The position numbers and the translations under genes were made by a program. The notes below the pieces were generated by a model. That model saw nothing but the letters and a program-made list of their open reading frames with translations. It was not told where the DNA came from and made no database searches. Below, piece after piece: positions 5,106-19,896 of a stretch of DNA of 20,162 nt (the first letter of the stretch is position 1; every line of letters begins with the position of its first letter). The stretch is from a virus: positions 1 to 20,162 of IMG/VR virus record IMGVR_UViG_3300009124_000128; one strand, given 5' to 3'.

Positions 5106-7598
5106 TTAGAAAAATGATAAGAGTGAAACAGACCGCTCGTAGTCCCAACCAATACATTCTAGCACGTTCTTGAGCGGTTCAAAGAACGACTTCTCAAACT
5201 GTTTGTTGAAGTCTACATACTTCTCAACGTTGAACTCAGGTGGGAGATTTTGGAAGAACGAGATTACGTTTTCTTGGATGGGGTTGGGAGTCTTGAGGTA
5301 GAGAAACTTGATCTTCTCTCCTTCTTGGATAAGAGGGTACTTGTGAGTAAGTTTATTACGGCTAACATGGTGATTGTACAGTAATGCACCTCGGACATGA
5401 ATAGGTGTACCCTTTGAATAGATGTCCGCCACAGACTTGTATTTCTTGAGACCATTTACACCTCGGGGAAAAGCAATGTTTACACAATCTTCTTTCTTTG
5501 TGTCTTCCTTGACCCTATCAATATAGTCAATTAACACATCATTATCTTCGTTAATAATAATCTCATATGCTTTGAGTAGTTTATCTCGGAAGTATGCTGG
5601 AGTAGATGACCTAGCGGTCTCCATACCACAAATCTTCATCTTAGGTTCAGCATAGCGGACACCTTCGCTGTCCCATACGTTGAGAATGTATCGCTTCTTG
5701 GCAGTCCAGATAGCACGGTCAGCGATGTTCTCACGCTTCATCTTCATTTTTTGTTCATATGCCGAAACGTAGTTCGCAAGTTCCTGATAACTGGACTCGA
5801 TGAATGGTTCCAACTTTTCTTGACAGATCTTGTCAAGTATCCCCACAATTGCTGTTTTGTTGCCAGACTTAGCACTAAAAAATTTATCAACAAGAGGTCC
5901 AAGATTAAGATAGATTGAGTCGGTATCGCTAGCGATGACATAATCGACATCCTCCGTTTGTAACAGTTTATTTAGATATCCGTTCATCTTGTTCTCAATC
6001 CAACGGATCGAAAGCTGACCAGACATAGTGATTGCCTCAGCGATCTCTAGTCGATAGTAACGGAAGTGTTCATTACCAATGGCACCATAAGCAGAGTTCA
6101 GTTGGATCTTACGTGCCATCTGAATGTTGTTACAGCGAGCGATCTCTTTCTTAAGATCGGTGCTGGGTTTCTTCTCATACTCCTGCTTTGCCTTAAGCAT
6201 ACGCTTCTTATAAATGGTACGTTCCTGATAGATCTTGTCCATCAGTTCAGGCAAGAAACCACGCTTCGTGGTGTCATAGTATGTACCATTAGCACACAAA
6301 GTCTTACCCTCCATGTAGGAGATATCAATCTCATTATTCAGGAGTCGATCGACCGTCGCCGTTGGGTGACGATGGTCAAGTAACGTCTCTGGCGAGAGGT
6401 TGTACTGCATAATGAGGTGAGGGTAGAGCGAGTTGAGGTCAAAACTGACCACCCAGTCATAAATCCCTGGAATAGGTTCTTTGACATACGCCCCAGCGTA
6501 CTTGTTATCTTTCCTGCTTTCATGTTTAGGAGGGATTACTAGATTACGTTTAGACAGATAAACATAGATGATGTTGTCCCACATACGTACCTGTGAGTAC
6601 ACATCTTCAAAGTTAACCTTAGCATCGTATGCCATGGTGATAGCAAGTTCAATCAACTTCATCTTGTCATCCAGCTGGTCAACCAGACGAACGTCAACGA
6701 TGTTGTAATCAACAAACTTCTTCCAGTCCTTGGTATAGAACTCCTTGAAGGTATCGAACTCACTGTGATCAAGTTTCTTGGCACCAAGTTCTACCGAACA
6801 AATGTGATCCAGACGGTAGGACTCTTGGTTGGTGTAAGTAAACTTCTTATACAGTTCCAGATAATCAAGGCAAGAAATGCCACTGATGTCATAAGCAATC
6901 TGCTTACGACCTTTAATGTAGATCTCACGGTAGAGAATACTCTTCCAAGGTGAGATCATCTTGGATTCTTTCTCTCCAATCACACGCTCGATACGTTTGA
7001 TGATGTACGGGATATCGAACAGTTGTACGTTCCAACCCGTGATCACATCAGGGAAGTTAGAGATCCAGAAGTGGAGAAATGCCTTCAGCAGACCCACCTC
7101 AGTCTTGAACTCAAGGTAGTCCACGTCAGGGTCTGTCGCCTGATACGGGCGAGAACCAAACACAGTGATACGACCAGTGTGAGAGTCCTTCAAGGAGATC
7201 AGAAGAATCTCCTGGTCGGCAGTCTCGATGTCAGGAAAACCATTCTCAGCACCAGTCTCGATGTCAAGGGTAAAGATACGAATCTGATTCATATCAAACT
7301 TCATCTCATCCCAAGGATACTCCTCAAGGATGTACTGGTTGTTGTATCGTGTCTGACCATACACAGGAAAGTCTTCCATCTCCTTGTGAGTGTCAACAAA
7401 CTGACGTGCATCTTTGATCGTGCCCTGCTTAACAGGGCGAACACGTTTGCCATCGAGTGTCTTCCACTCGGAAGGTTTCTCGGTAGGCAAGAACAGTGTC
7501 GGGTTGAACTTCACCCGATCACTGAACTGCCGACCATGATCATAACCACGAACCAGGATAGTGTTCCCAGACTGTTGAACACTGGTGTAAAACTTCAT
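5106..7598 (-). CDS. 43: DNA polymerase, family B, T4 gp43-like
   Basis: This complete 830-aa replicative polymerase has a 3'-5' proofreading exonuclease. Exo I is LDIETG (111-116), Exo II is [13 protein letters not shown] (186-198), and Exo III is [13 protein letters not shown] (298-310). Polymerase motif A is [10 protein letters not shown] (387-396), motif [15 protein letters not shown] (497-510), and motif [11 protein letters not shown] (556-565) with the catalytic aspartates. All key residues are present, with no intein or split. The protein ends in SLLSFF, a short hydrophobic/aromatic tail like the sliding-clamp-binding peptide of T4 gp43, so it should dock on gp45. Somewhat shorter than T4 gp43 (898 aa). 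The start overlaps the upstream Sm-like gene as ATGA. Confidence 0.98.
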
Positions 7599-7849
7599 TC
7601 CGTCTCTTTGTCTTTCAGGTCATAGTAAAGTGCCGAGTACATGGCGCTAGGATCACAGATCACAGTAATGTCGGATGATCTAACAACCAGTTCTCGGTCG
7701 TCGCTGAACTCGGGAAAGGGCACTGCTCCATCCCGAGATACCTCACAAGGGTATTTTAGCACACAGTCAGGGTCACCGAACTCGACGCCACCCAGTTCCT
7801 CAATCTCTGCTACGAGCCAATGCCCGTCTAACTTGAGGAGTTTAATCAT
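7595..7849 (-). CDS. Short Sm-like (LSM-fold) protein, third of three
   Basis: This 84-aa protein can be aligned by eye to the two genes upstream: an opening strand IKLLKLDGHWLVAEIEEL (compare HLTTGEQIIAGLEEL in the first copy), a middle strand VLKYPCEV, then PFPEFSD and a closing DITVICDPSAMYSALYYDL (compare NIVAVAEPTWHVYDTYIGL). This pattern of a curved five-strand barrel with a [T/S/D]G turn after strand 1 suits the Sm/Hfq fold. As I recall, a Sm-like protein of putative cyanophage origin has been solved structurally. RNA binding is inferred. It lies directly before DNA polymerase, with ATGA overlaps on both sides. Confidence 0.75.
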   Translation of the reverse strand: MIKLLKLDGHWLVAEIEELGGVEFGDPDCVLKYPCEVSRDGAVPFPEFSDDRELVVRSSDITVICDPSAMYSALYYDLKDKETE

Positions 7850-8337
7850 ACTACCTCAGGGACAATGGCAGGTTCTTCAACCTGTTGGAAAGGTTCGGCA
7901 ATAGGATGTTCATCAGTGTTAGCACCAACGCCAGCAGTGTTAGGAATATCACCACCCACTGCCTCTTGAATAGCTTCTCGCTGTGCTGCCGAGTTCTTAT
8001 CTTCCTGCTGATCTACTTTATTTCGATAAGCTTGTGCCAAACCAGGATCAGGAGTTCCAATAGTTAGAATACCATCATAAGGAATACGATACTGATTATC
8101 CAAAGAATATGGACACCACTTACTAAATTTAACTTGAAGATCTCGGGATGGATCATCTGTGTTAGGAACACTAATTAATTCAAGTTCATAAGGGAAATTC
8201 ATAACAAGACAAACACCCTTACGATCTTCACCCTCTCCTTCGAATACTTCTTGTAAGATAGTAATCAATTTATCACCACTCTTAAGAACTACAATAGATG
8301 GTTGAAGTTCAGCAGGTTGATTGTTTTCTTCAGTCAT
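7846..8337 (-). CDS. Sm-like (LSM-fold) protein with acidic C-terminal tail, second of three
   Basis: A 163-aa protein. Residues about 15-105 follow the Sm-like pattern: IVVLKSGDKLITILQEV, CLVMNFPYELELI, FSKWCPYSLDNQYRIPYDG, ILTIGTPDPGLAQAYRNKV. The FxxWxPyS...YRI block is nearly the same in the first copy (FFAWSPFSSTREFRI). The last 60 residues are a Gln/Glu/Pro-rich, probably disordered tail (EEPAIVPEVV), absent from the other two. I chose ATG 8337 because it is preceded by GGAG at suitable distance and overlaps the stop of the first copy by eight bases; the open frame further upstream lies inside that gene. Probable ring-forming RNA-binding protein; function unproven. Confidence 0.78.
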   Translation of the reverse strand: MTEENNQPAELQPSIVVLKSGDKLITILQEVFEGEGEDRKGVCLVMNFPYELELISVPNTDDPSRDLQVKFSKWCPYSLDNQYRIPYDGILTIGTPDPGLAQAYRNKVDQQEDKNSAAQREAIQEAVGGDIPNTAGVGANTDEHPIAEPFQQVEEPAIVPEVV

Positions 8338-8686
8338 TGTTTTTGTTTCTCCGTTTTTTCTCAAGTTTATATGCTTCAAATTCCGCTTCATTTAATAGTG
8401 GATGAAGCGGTTGTACTAGACCAATGTATGTATCATACACATGCCAAGTAGGTTCTGCTACAGCAACGATATTTTCAAATGCAATTCTGAATTCTCTAGT
8501 AGAAGAAAAAGGACTCCAAGCAAAGAAATTCATTGAAGGTTTTTCGGGGTCATCTGTAGCGATGACCTTCATTGCCATAGGCATAGTGGCAACAAAGCAC
8601 AAAGGATTGCCTTCGGTATCTTTCAATTCTTCTAGACCAGCAATTATTTGCTCTCCAGTAGTTAGATGTAGTATGTTAATAGACAT
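8330..8686 (-). CDS. Sm-like (LSM-fold) protein, first of three
   Basis: A 118-aa protein. The strand order is SINILHLTTGEQIIAGLEEL, CFVATMPMAMKVI, MNFFAWSPFSSTREFRIAF, NIVAVAEPTWHVYDTYIGLV, followed by a basic tail KLEKKRRNKNND. The Sm1-like strand with TG turn and the closing strand match its two downstream neighbours. It is the first gene after the terminator that ends the hsp20 unit, with an extended -10 promoter 20 bases upstream. A basic tail in a Sm-like protein would suit RNA contact, but this is inference. There is no clear Shine-Dalgarno (leader ends GATTAATT), so initiation may be on a very short leader. Confidence 0.78.
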   Translation of the reverse strand: MSINILHLTTGEQIIAGLEELKDTEGNPLCFVATMPMAMKVIATDDPEKPSMNFFAWSPFSSTREFRIAFENIVAVAEPTWHVYDTYIGLVQPLHPLLNEAEFEAYKLEKKRRNKNND

Positions 8687-8706: not shown

Positions 8707-8715
8707 ATTATAGCA
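8707..8715 (-). promoter_or_regulatory. Extended -10 promoter for the Sm-like/gp43/uvsX/gp41 unit
   Basis: TGCTATAAT reads on the minus strand: a consensus TATAAT with the extended -10 TGn. It starts within the U tract of the upstream terminator, so termination and re-initiation are abutted. No -35 can be seen, because that position holds the terminator hairpin. The expected start gives a leader of about 14 bases before ATG 8686. A host sigma70-type, early or middle promoter is likely. Confidence 0.6.
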
Positions 8716-8746
8716 AAAAAACACAGGACCCACAAGGGGTCCTGTG
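8715..8746 (-). terminator. Strong rho-independent terminator after hsp20
   Basis: On the minus strand CACAGGACCC (8746-8737) pairs perfectly with GGGTCCTGTG (8731-8722) over a five-base loop, giving ten GC-rich pairs, followed by seven Us at 8721-8715. It lies 7 bases after the hsp20 stop. This is the clearest terminator in the window. Confidence 0.93.
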
Positions 8747-8753
8747 CCAATAT

Positions 8754-9200
8754 TTATTCTGTCAGCAGTTGCTTCTCTGGCGGTTTTCCACCAATTTCAT
8801 ACACCGTTCTCCTCTGGTGTTCTGGGATAATTTTTTCCAGCGAAACACACAATAAACCGTCCGCAAAAACTACATCAGTCACTCTAACATCATCTCCTAG
8901 TTGCCACGTTCTAGTGAACGATCTCTTCGATACTCCTTTGTGTACATACTCGACTTTAGGATCCGTCTTTGCATGTGTCGTGGCAATTCTGAGAATGTTT
9001 GATTCAGTAGATACTTCAATCTCCTCTGGTTTAAATCCTGCCAGAGCAATTTGAATTTCGTAATTACTGGTGTCATGTTTGATTAGGTTATACGGAGGAT
9101 AGTTCTTATCATGATGTGTCATAGATTCCAATCTATGGAACATATCATCCAAACCTACAAAATGAGGGGAGTAGAGATCCCACTGGTAAGTGTTAGTCAT
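8754..9200 (-). CDS. hsp20: Small heat shock protein, Hsp20/alpha-crystallin family
   Basis: A 148-aa ATP-independent holdase chaperone. The alpha-crystallin domain runs from YPPYNLIKHDTSNYEIQIALAGF through KPEEIEVSTESNILRIA and the classical KRSFTRTWQLGDDVRV...DGLLCVSLEKIIPE (about 34-132). The N-terminal arm contains LDDMFHRLES, as in bacterial HspA/IbpA. The C-terminal tail lacks a clear IXI motif. A perfect AGGAG lies 7 bases before the ATG, behind a leader of about 55 bases. It is flanked on both sides by terminators and has its own -10, so it is a one-gene unit inside the replication region. Hsp20 genes are common in cyanomyoviruses and are thought to help protein folding or scaffold assembly during infection. 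Confidence 0.97.
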   Translation of the reverse strand: MTNTYQWDLYSPHFVGLDDMFHRLESMTHHDKNYPPYNLIKHDTSNYEIQIALAGFKPEEIEVSTESNILRIATTHAKTDPKVEYVHKGVSKRSFTRTWQLGDDVRVTDVVFADGLLCVSLEKIIPEHQRRTVYEIGGKPPEKQLLTE

Positions 9201-9316: not shown

Positions 9317-9739
9317 TTATACTTCAGTCTTCTTACGACCGATATTGTATTTACTTTCAAGCGTCCATTCATCCTTCTCTTTGAAGGCAAGGACTTTAAT
9401 TTGATTAAGTGGAGCAACGTCAGAAATTTTATCGCCCTCCACTAATGAAACAAGACCCCAATCAGAAAGAAGTTGGATGATCCTGTTCCGTCTTTGAACA
9501 TCATTCAATGAAAGATTTGTGCTCTTTCCATCAAGAGCAAACAATTCTTTAAAGTGAACAATGTAATACTTTCCTTGCTTATGAAGGATATGACACGACT
9601 GATATAGCTTCCTTTCTTTTCTGGATGCTACACCAATACGTGTAAGAGTTTCTCGAACCTTGAGGAAGTCGTCAGGTTGTCCCAAGGTAACCTCCACCAT
9701 ATCGGTAGGTTGCCAAGTTACTTCAATTTCTGTGCTCAT
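9317..9739 (-). CDS. regA: RegA translational repressor
   Basis: A 140-aa early-gene translational repressor that binds ribosome binding sites of phage mRNAs. Strong family features are visible: DDFLKVRETLTRIGVASRK, LYQSCHILHKQGKYYIVHFKE (written here as two blocks, LYQSCHILHKQ and GKYYIVHFKE), LLSDWGLVSLVEGD, and the C-terminal EWTLESKYNIGRK, closely matching T4 RegA along its whole length. The N-terminus is about 13 residues longer than T4 RegA. An in-frame ATG at 9700 (MVEVTLGQP) would match T4 better, but ATG 9739 has a GGTGG upstream and an ATGA overlap with gp62, so I kept it. A terminator follows. Confidence 0.96.
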   Translation of the reverse strand: MSTEIEVTWQPTDMVEVTLGQPDDFLKVRETLTRIGVASRKERKLYQSCHILHKQGKYYIVHFKELFALDGKSTNLSLNDVQRRNRIIQLLSDWGLVSLVEGDKISDVAPLNQIKVLAFKEKDEWTLESKYNIGRKKTEV

Positions 9740-17285: not shown

Positions 17286-17924
17286 TCAATACTCAAAGTT
17301 AGAATCATCATGCCCGACAGGTCCCTTAGGCATTATATTAAAAGATAACGAGTATCTTTTAATATCAGTTTTATGTTTTAAAACTTGATGCTGTAAAGAA
17401 CTAGGGAACAATACCATCATGTTTGTTCTCGGTCTAAGTTCCCAAGACAAACTATTAAAGTAATTGTAATCAAATGGTTCTACATTTATAGTTATATGAT
17501 TAGGATTGTAAAATACTAAAGGAGCACTGTCATTATCATATGCCCCAAAGTAAACAATACCGCTCAACCAAGAATTGGTGTGTGAATGTCGTTCACATCC
17601 ACCACCTTCATATGTACGTGTAAACCAAGAACTAGTGAATTGAATATCACACGGATACTTCATAGTATCAATTACATAAGAAAGACATTTGTCTCTTAGG
17701 TGCTTCTCAACATCTGGAAATTTTGACAAAATATTTTTATCTTTAGTAACTGCTCCTAGACAACCATCATCCTCAATATCTTCTAACCATTCAACAGTAT
17801 CTTTAAAATCATAAAGTTGTTTGGTAATATTAAAGTCAATATTACAAGTAGAAATAGGACTAGAAAAAGTCGGAACAATTTGCCAGTAAGGTTCTTGATC
17901 TAACGTGAATGGTGGGTAACTCAT
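17286..17924 (-). CDS. 2OG-Fe(II) oxygenase superfamily protein
   Basis: A 212-aa protein with the layout of the TIGR02466-like 2OG-Fe(II) oxygenases of marine phages. CERHSHTNSWLSGIVYF (110-126) carries His113 and His115, the metal-binding region followed by the NSWLSG strand; PLVFYNP (135-141) follows. FPSSLQHQV contains distal His179, and KRYSLSFNI supplies Arg190, expected to bind the 2-oxoglutarate carboxylate. Substrate is unknown; such enzymes hydroxylate proteins, nucleobases or small molecules. Sequence is notably AT-rich compared with the Cob-like genes next door, which suggests separate acquisition. The start overlaps gp46 as ATGA. It is the last gene of the 47-46 unit. Confidence 0.88.
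   Translation of the reverse strand: MSYPPFTLDQEPYWQIVPTFSSPISTCNIDFNITKQLYDFKDTVEWLEDIEDDGCLGAVTKDKNILSKFPDVEKHLRDKCLSYVIDTMKYPCDIQFTSSWFTRTYEGGGCERHSHTNSWLSGIVYFGAYDNDSAPLVFYNPNHITINVEPFDYNYFNSLSWELRPRTNMMVLFPSSLQHQVLKHKTDIKRYSLSFNIMPKGPVGHDDSNFEY
17335..17365. repeat. Perfect 13-bp inverted repeat inside the oxygenase gene
   Basis: ATATTAAAAGATA (17335-17347), a five-base spacer, and TATCTTTTAATAT (17353-17365) form an exact palindromic hairpin. It lies in the coding sequence for the IKRYSLSFNI segment near the C-terminus. AT-rich, no T tract beyond the arm, and not at a gene boundary. Confidence 0.95.
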
Positions 17925-19636
17925 GCTTCAGATAAAACAGAATAATTTTTAATTTTATCAAACTTAAGGGTTCGATCAAACTTTCCTTCTAGACTTTCTT
18001 TGTGACTAATAACAAACACGTTTGTGTTGTCATCAAAGTTACGAAGGATCCATCCTAGTTCACTACTACCACTGGCATCCAGAGAACCATCAAAGATCTC
18101 ATCTAGAATAAGGAGGTTAGTATCCACACTATTCTTAAGTTTAGCAATACTCCTCCAAGTAAGCAGAAGAGCAAGATCGATACGAGCTTTCTCTCCCTCA
18201 CTGAAAGATTCGTAAGTAAAGATATCTCGGTATCTAGACTTAATAGTTTCCTCAAAGTTTTCATTAAGAGTAAAGTTAACGTAAAAGTCCATCTTCCTAA
18301 GATAATCTCCGATGAGTTTGTTCATCGCTGGAAGATATCGTTTGATGATTCTACTCTTAATTCCATTATCTTTTAACAATTGACCAGCAACACTTAATGT
18401 ATCTTTATCTTTTTTAGATGTGATAAACTGATCTTTGATCAGATTCTTCTCATTAACGTAAGCAGTTAGCTTTTCAAACTCTGCTTTCTTGCTGCTGGTA
18501 GGAGCATTAAGATCTTCGATCTCTGTCTCTATATTACTAATCTGCTGACCAAGAGATGTAATCTCATAGTTCAGTTGATTAATAACAGAATTTAATTCAA
18601 CAATTTGTTCAGACAACTCCATGAACTTTGATTCACGTTTCTCCTCTTGCTTAATAGACTCCTCAAGATCACCGAAGCCTTTCTCTAAGGTCAGTAATTC
18701 TTTGTCACCCTCATTGATCTTCTGGTCTCGGAAGTCCTGTCCAATCTCTTGTGTACATGTAGGACACACGTGATTGTTAATGAAGAACTCAGTCTCTTTC
18801 TTACAGGTGCTGATCTTTTGCTGGATCTTCACACGAAAGGTATTGAGTTGTTTGAGTTTCTTTTTGTTATCGGCAAGAGTTTCAAGTTGATCGTTTAAAC
18901 TACCAACTTCAACAGTCAGTTCAGCAGCTTGTTTCATCGCTCCTGATTGACTCACCTTCAGTGAAGAAATTTTATTTTCTTTCTTCTCGATATCACTCTT
19001 CGCCTTCTTCTCCATCTCCAGCATGTAATTTTTCTGGAGTTCGATTTTGTCAGTAGACAACTTGAGTTGATATTCTAGTTCCTTGATCTCTTCATTGTTG
19101 TCACGAACTTTGTCTTTAAGCAAAGTGTTCATGACTGAGAAAATCTGGATGTCTAGAATGTCTTCGATGATTTCCCTTCGTGATGCCACTGGCAGTTTCA
19201 TAAAAGGAACGAACGTAGATGACCCAAGAACTACAATCTGTGTGAAAGACTTATAGTTCATCTTCAAAATGTTTTGTTCTAGTTGCTTTTGATAGTCAAC
19301 TGCTGTAGATGACTGATCAATCATCTGACCATTTTGATAAATCTCAAACACACTAGGTTTGATACCACGAATAATTTTGTATTGATTTTTAGCAATACGA
19401 AACTCGACTTCCACCTCACAACCTTTTTCATTGATGCTGTTAACCAGCATGGGTTTATTAATCTTCCTAAATGGTTTACCAAATAAAGAAAATGTCAAAG
19501 CGTCAAGAACGGTACTCTTGCCAGCACCATTTGAACCAATGATTAGATTGGTTTTGTGTGATGTAAGATCCACCTCGGTGAACACGTTCCCCGTAGATAG
19601 GAAGTTTTTCCAGCGGATCTTTTCAAATACGATCAT
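17921..19636 (-). CDS. 46: Recombination nuclease ATPase subunit, gp46 (SbcC/Rad50-like)
   Basis: A 571-aa SMC-like ATPase. Walker A is GSNGAGKST (34-42). Residues about 170-400 form two coiled-coil arms around a zinc hook CPTC (291-294). The ABC signature is SFSEGEKAR (477-485), and Walker B LLILDEIFD (508-516) is followed by the D-loop GSLD. It works with gp47, encoded just upstream, to resect double-strand ends, feeding UvsX for recombination-dependent replication and host DNA breakdown. Length is near T4 gp46 (560 aa). Overlaps of ATGA type occur at both ends: with the 87-aa gene upstream and the oxygenase downstream. Confidence 0.97.
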   Translation of the reverse strand: MIVFEKIRWKNFLSTGNVFTEVDLTSHKTNLIIGSNGAGKSTVLDALTFSLFGKPFRKINKPMLVNSINEKGCEVEVEFRIAKNQYKIIRGIKPSVFEIYQNGQMIDQSSTAVDYQKQLEQNILKMNYKSFTQIVVLGSSTFVPFMKLPVASRREIIEDILDIQIFSVMNTLLKDKVRDNNEEIKELEYQLKLSTDKIELQKNYMLEMEKKAKSDIEKKENKISSLKVSQSGAMKQAAELTVEVGSLNDQLETLADNKKKLKQLNTFRVKIQQKISTCKKETEFFINNHVCPTCTQEIGQDFRDQKINEGDKELLTLEKGFGDLEESIKQEEKRESKFMELSEQIVELNSVINQLNYEITSLGQQISNIETEIEDLNAPTSSKKAEFEKLTAYVNEKNLIKDQFITSKKDKDTLSVAGQLLKDNGIKSRIIKRYLPAMNKLIGDYLRKMDFYVNFTLNENFEETIKSRYRDIFTYESFSEGEKARIDLALLLTWRSIAKLKNSVDTNLLILDEIFDGSLDASGSSELGWILRNFDDNTNVFVISHKESLEGKFDRTLKFDKIKNYSVLSEA

Positions 19637-19896
19637 TCTAAATCTTTCGGTGGTATCAGGAAATCATCTTTGGTAATTATAGCATACTTATGGTATCTCT
19701 CTTCACAAGCATTAATAATTAAATCTTCATCAATTTCAACAATCTGAAGGAGTGGGTTTGTAGGATCCATTACCATCATACCGTTGTATCGCTCCGCATC
19801 GTCAGCACTTTCGAAAATAGGAATAATCTGATCTCCTTCTTCGGAAACCACAGAGAACACCCCTTCTACTTTATCAGCTAACGTGAGAATATACAT
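19633..19896 (-). CDS. Small DUF3110-like protein between gp47 and gp46
   Basis: An 87-aa protein: MYILTLADKVEGVFSVVSEE, then IIPIFESADDAERYNGMMV, a strand LQIVEIDEDLII, and a closing KYAIITKDDFLIPP. The overall order (YvL strand, IfEsxDDAxRY, EIDxxxI, IxxxxxLIPP) resembles DUF3110, a small cyanobacterial family, as I remember it. Placement between the two subunits of one nuclease, with TGATG and ATGA overlaps, suggests equal expression with them and perhaps a regulatory role; this is inference. Function unknown. Confidence 0.82.
   Translation of the reverse strand: MYILTLADKVEGVFSVVSEEGDQIIPIFESADDAERYNGMMVMDPTNPLLQIVEIDEDLIINACEERYHKYAIITKDDFLIPPKDLE

Follow-up and report, generated by a model that had tools for sequence, protein, structure and literature searches.

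Acidic Sm-like paralogues encoded next to the DNA polymerase gene in T4-like cyanophages

Three small proteins encoded directly ahead of the DNA polymerase gene (gp43) of a T4-like cyanophage were shown to be members of a single family of small cyanophage proteins with the Sm fold, to which the protein of PDB entry 3by7 is related. Across the gp43 loci compared, SmA ahead of gp43, in most cases with SmB before it, is the rule of this family. The window, which is the whole 20,162-base IMG/VR virus record, represents a T4-like cyanophage replication region, and its nearest relatives were T4-like Synechococcus phages. We favour the explanation that the proteins are acidic, ring-forming accessory proteins of the phage replication or transcription machinery, with a probability of about 0.45. 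Fold and family are already known, the fold from one ocean-virus structure. The new elements are the tandem multi-copy set, the coupling to the polymerase gene, the joining of DUF6561 with four PHROG families and the acidic, non-canonical character of the proteins; little has been written on the conserved set or on how tightly it is linked to the polymerase. In the open-access literature we found no study of these cyanophage Sm-like genes.

The Sm-like genes and their probable expression unit

On the minus strand of the window the gene order was gp46, a large protein, a CobS-like ATPase, gp45, gp44, a DNA methylase, gp62, RegA, Hsp20, SmC, SmB, SmA, gp43, UvsX and gp41. gp62, RegA, Hsp20 and gp43 were named through Pfam and PHROG, and the other window genes through synteny with annotated cyanophages. 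The features used below were as follows (window positions).

5106-7598, minus strand: gp43 DNA polymerase (Pfam DNA_pol_B, 1.6e-32), overlapped by the end of SmA
7595-7849, minus strand: SmA, 84 aa, Sm-like, DUF6561 (Pfam, 8.7e-19), phrog_483
7846-8337, minus strand: SmB, 163 aa, Sm-like, phrog_431 (3.8e-30), with an acidic, mostly disordered C-terminal tail
8330-8686, minus strand: SmC, 118 aa, third Sm-like protein, SmB lineage, phrog_431 (1.6e-17) and DUF6561 (6.7e-8), with a short basic tail
8707-8712, minus strand: TATAAT hexamer (exact, -10-like) immediately ahead of SmC, read from the sequence
8720-8748, minus strand: intrinsic-terminator-like hairpin and T run between hsp20 and SmC, parting the Sm-gp43 unit from hsp20
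8754-9200, minus strand: Hsp20, upstream neighbour of the Sm genes (Pfam HSP20, 1.2e-15; phrog_432)
9317-9739, minus strand: RegA translational repressor, upstream neighbour (Pfam Translat_reg, 1.6e-43)
17921-19636, minus strand: gp46, named by synteny with annotated cyanophages

The initial annotation had recognised three adjacent Sm-like reading frames with different tails. Their positions were confirmed with a single revision: the start of SmB was moved from 8391, where the longest open reading frame begins, to an ATG at 8337 (MTEENNQP...) that lies behind a GGAG and is most likely the start. The tails also proved to differ. SmC ends in the basic sequence KLEKKRRNKNND, the acidic tail of SmB was modelled with low confidence (pLDDT under 60 near residues 130-150), and SmA is closed by its C-terminal helix with no further tail. 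The genes overlap by 8 nt (SmC/SmB), 4 nt (SmB/SmA) and 4 nt (SmA/gp43), the SmA stop and the gp43 start sharing an ATGA. The same three-gene layout was present in the Synechococcus phage relative Sf-FR1. Elsewhere in the window, a DUF3110 protein (1.7e-9) is encoded at 19633-19896 between gp46 and a partial gp47, and a tRNA-Ser (TGA) gene lies on the minus strand at 1742-1826, near the window end.

Of 203 distinct upstream regions, 116 had a TATAAT hexamer no more than 110 nt ahead of the first Sm gene, compared with 16 +/- 4 in mononucleotide shuffles, and similar hairpins, under a strict rule, in 18 of the 203 loci (0.2 in shuffles). A sigma-70 scan before SmC gave no two-hexamer promoter, the clean match being to the -10 only. 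Furthermore, the SmA-gp43 junction measured -4 or -1 nt in 200 loci. Hairpin, hexamer and overlapping or abutting junction together suggest that the Sm cassette probably heads the gp43 transcription unit.

Sm fold, lineages and further copies

Single-sequence phmmer searches against the PDB were merely suggestive (SmB and SmC, E 0.02-0.09; nothing relevant for SmA), so that family profiles were required. These matched 3by7 at 1.9e-10 (SmA), 9.9e-12 (SmB/C) and 3.4e-14 (SmD, a further paralogue described below), and all of them also matched the TIP60 constructs built on 3by7. AlphaFold2 models of SmA (pLDDT 94.3) and SmB (86.1; core mostly above 90, tail disordered) showed strands followed by a C-terminal helix in Sm topology. 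Their top Foldseek matches in the PDB were 3by7/TIP60, followed by human U1 snRNP Sm, archaeal SmAP and Lsm1-7 chains; the SmB model matched 3by7 at E 7e-5 with a TM of 0.86 by target. The Sm-like fold that had been proposed was thus upheld by the profile matches and by the models of SmA and SmB, and SmC is assigned to the Sm-like family by its sequence. 3by7 (JCVI_PEP_1096686650277) is a marine metagenome protein described as structurally similar to Sm/LSm and serves as the core of the designed nanocage TIP60. It resembles the window proteins in fold, in homology to every paralogue profile, in its similar length and in the C-terminal helix. It is closest to the SmD class rather than to SmA or SmB, and it was solved alone, without tandem partners, as five identical chains in the crystal. 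The 2009 study of this structure reportedly described traits that would suit the binding of nucleic acid.

No Hfq or LSM Pfam model matched the three proteins up to E 10; only DUF6561 and Sm_like (PF16243) did, and no NCBIfam model matched the Sm proteins. SmA and SmC passed the cut-off of DUF6561 (PF20198), SmB fell below it (5e-4), and SmC matched Sm_like at 0.005. Pfam keeps PF16243 and PF20198 apart and lists DUF6561 as of unknown function. phrog_431 was common to SmB and SmC, and the SmA profile matched the SmB/C profile at E 2.5e-17 (hhalign). The similarity among the three proteins, earlier read by eye, is therefore well past chance level, and they are diverged paralogues. The profile matches join DUF6561, Sm_like and phrog_431, 471, 483 and 527 into one superfamily.

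In the tree, SmA separated from SmB/C/D, and SmD formed a clade of 12 members with support 1.0. Extra SmB-type copies fell into two separate clades, with supports of 0.983 (the one including this window) and 0.993; the SmC clade, at 0.983, contained Sf-FR1 and loci L013, L014 and L022. When SmC was the sole query of viral contigs, only six near-identical or close contigs were returned. By sequence, SmA and SmB are old lineages, each conserved separately, and almost all loci have both; SmC alone has the look of an additional copy, derived from the SmB lineage. The tandem duplication suggested earlier holds as paralogy; as a recent event it does not.

Three to five Sm-like genes per genome were present in all 14 complete or long genomes. 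In the genomes inspected, SmE, which passes the Pfam Sm_like cut-off, had uvsW on one side and the late sigma gene gp55 on the other; it matched 411 phage records, all cyanophage or marine. It is annotated as 'methylamine utilization', a widespread mislabelling of this Sm-like gene seen, for example, in NC_006820.1 at 84006-84404 (L099:2507-2905) and its equivalents in other cyanophages. By synteny, SmE would be expected just outside the upstream edge of the window. SmD followed gp44 in S-CAM3, and as a query it matched 354 records, one Pelagibacter phage among them. Another Sm-like copy occurred in S-RSM4 among 2OG-oxygenase and tail genes.

Conservation of the genes at gp43

Because the SmB/C alignment was too diverged to search viral contigs directly, the census was anchored on gp43. 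It covered viral contigs and phage records, some of the contigs overlapping, and comprised 221 loci whose sequence extended 1.2 kb or more beyond gp43 on its upstream side; the sample consists of relatives of the cyanophage gp43, and the counts apply to these. SmA was upstream of gp43 in every one of the 221 loci and was preceded by SmB in 209; the reversed order was found in none, and no locus was without SmA. The placement directly before gp43 noted in the initial annotation was therefore not only correct but general. SmB-SmA stood directly at gp43 in 158 loci, 35 had the pair followed by an insert, 16 carried SmB-SmB-SmA and 12 had only SmA, so that a third copy (SmC) belongs to a minority of the loci (16 of 221). 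The 12 SmA-only loci were scattered over several phage groups, indicating that SmB is dispensable. In about 35 loci 200-730 nt, a further gene where examined, separated SmA from gp43, with SmA and SmB kept.

Several local variants were recorded. In L045, L066 and L070, SmA and gp43 are split by a gene of about 255-263 aa (LSIDLDYIMGP...), present in two copies in L066. SmA carries a mid-domain insertion of about 40 residues in the SmA-only phages L077, L233 and L234. S-CAM3 (L011:1170-2440) has an insertion between regA and hsp20 that encodes a type II restriction enzyme paired with a DNA methyltransferase.

Charge, ring composition and possible roles

All 249 SmA and all 241 SmB sequences were net negative. 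Mean charge per 100 residues was about -9.9 for SmA and -9.4 for SmB, the lowest among the genes compared in the region, while RegA and gp62 had +3.3 and +4.7. The predicted bent beta-sheet, the beta1-beta2 G-turn and the beta4-turn-beta5 module recall Hfq and the archaeal and eukaryotic Sm/LSm rings. However, unlike those, SmA and SmB have a strongly negative net charge and lack the Sm1 D-x-N and Sm2 R-G; in the column compositions of SmA and SmB these canonical contact residues were not conserved. At the corresponding places SmA has G-[ED]-P-D-C and [RSH]-S, and SmB is variable. The beta2-beta3 loop of SmA conserves G25, D/E26, P27, D28 and C29, and S58 is conserved where Sm2 would lie; these positions correspond to the two loops forming the nucleotide pocket in Sm proteins. 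SmA thus retains a conserved site of different chemistry, and SmB does not. Because the proteins are strongly acidic and have no canonical RNA-contact residues, a classic Hfq-type chaperone is not favoured, and the earlier hint at RNA control is weakened. Local RNA- or DNA-binding patches are nevertheless compatible with a negative net charge, and an acidic protein may contact nucleic acid through one of its faces.

A hetero-oligomer of SmA and SmB is possible, and their co-occurrence in fixed order favours a joint function. SmA and SmB, with or without SmC, might build a hetero-oligomeric LSm ring. Such a ring would bind RNA of the phage or of the host, much as a viral version of the Lsm1-7 and snRNP rings, and would perhaps replace the Hfq lacking in many Prochlorococcus hosts; hfq is absent from most Prochlorococcus strains (PMC2518516). 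Two ancient paralogues side by side at 209 loci, the three to five paralogues in each of 14 records and the hetero-heptameric Sm/Lsm chains among the structural neighbours are in line with this mixed ring, which we nonetheless consider doubtful. The partners are not mutually required: the 12 loci that retain SmA without SmB argue against an obligate mixed ring. In mfDCA of 224 SmA-SmB pairs (Neff 164, a weak test), A-B couplings were no higher than the A-Hsp20 and B-Hsp20 controls, Hsp20 being a neighbouring gene presumed to be non-interacting, and the blocks of A beta4 against B beta5 were flat. Since the top inter-protein scores equalled those of the Hsp20/RegA controls, coevolution was not used as evidence for a complex. 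Couplings between beta4 and beta5 within SmA and within SmB fit Sm edge pairing weakly and may be intramolecular. Natural SmB-SmA fusions were not seen among the ORFs checked. The acidity of both proteins, the unconserved Sm1 and Sm2 residues and the single sequence of the five chains in the 3by7 crystal also speak against an RNA-binding mixed ring. The broader idea, in which marine T4-like cyanophages possess a dedicated set of three to five acidic Sm-like paralogues whose mixed rings serve the viral replisome and the machinery of late transcription, as a viral LSm system and not a single Hfq-like protein, likewise seems rather unlikely to us.

Another explanation is that SmA would bind the mRNA of the operon that encodes it, as RegA does or as T4 gp43 does when it regulates itself, with coupling through the stop/start overlap setting the amount of polymerase. 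The ATGA-type or near-zero junctions and the presence of regA within the same gene cluster agree with this. However, the loci that keep SmA and SmB despite an insert before gp43, the acidity of the proteins and the further paralogues at other genome sites make such a translational device improbable. Equally hard to credit is a Rof-like inhibition of the host, in which the Sm-like proteins would block a site where a factor of host transcription or RNA decay binds RNA. Rho is, to our knowledge, missing from cyanobacteria, and a target other than Rho would be needed; the fixed place and the co-encoding with replisome genes also count against this. Strong acidity and the Sm fold are on its side, as is the precedent of Rof (YaeO) itself, a Rho inhibitor from different hosts that is alike in fold and acts by protein binding, through contact with Rho (PMC11018626).

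The accessory role at the replication or transcription machinery, which we prefer, is favoured by the paralogues beside gp55 and gp44 and, by analogy, by the action of Rof on Rho (PMC11018626) and by cyanobacterial Hfq, which was reported without RNA binding (PMC10989914). Against it, the Sm-gp43 neighbourhood may reflect expression timing alone, and the traits reported for 3by7 would fit contact with nucleic acid. SmA, SmB and SmC would constitute a short promoter-proximal cassette that we infer to be expressed, and translationally coupled through the observed overlaps, with gp43, uvsX and gp41. By homology with 3by7, each protein probably forms small rings via pairing of the beta4 and beta5 edges. 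SmA would be the core member, with its family-specific conserved G-[ED]-P-D-C loop and the Ser at the Sm2 position, and SmB and SmC diverging partners with variable tails. As they are the most acidic of the region's measured proteins and lack canonical RNA-contact residues, their likeliest function would be that of oligomeric protein adaptors, or of nucleic-acid competitors, at the replication and late-transcription machinery, rather than that of general RNA chaperones.

These genes, currently annotated as hypothetical or 'methylamine utilization', are near-universal in the sampled members of one of the ocean's most abundant virus groups, where they have the genes of the polymerase and of the late sigma factor as neighbours. 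Placing DUF6561 and the four PHROGs in the Sm-like superfamily provides a structural handle on them, and the role of Sm-like rings in phage replication becomes testable with small soluble proteins.
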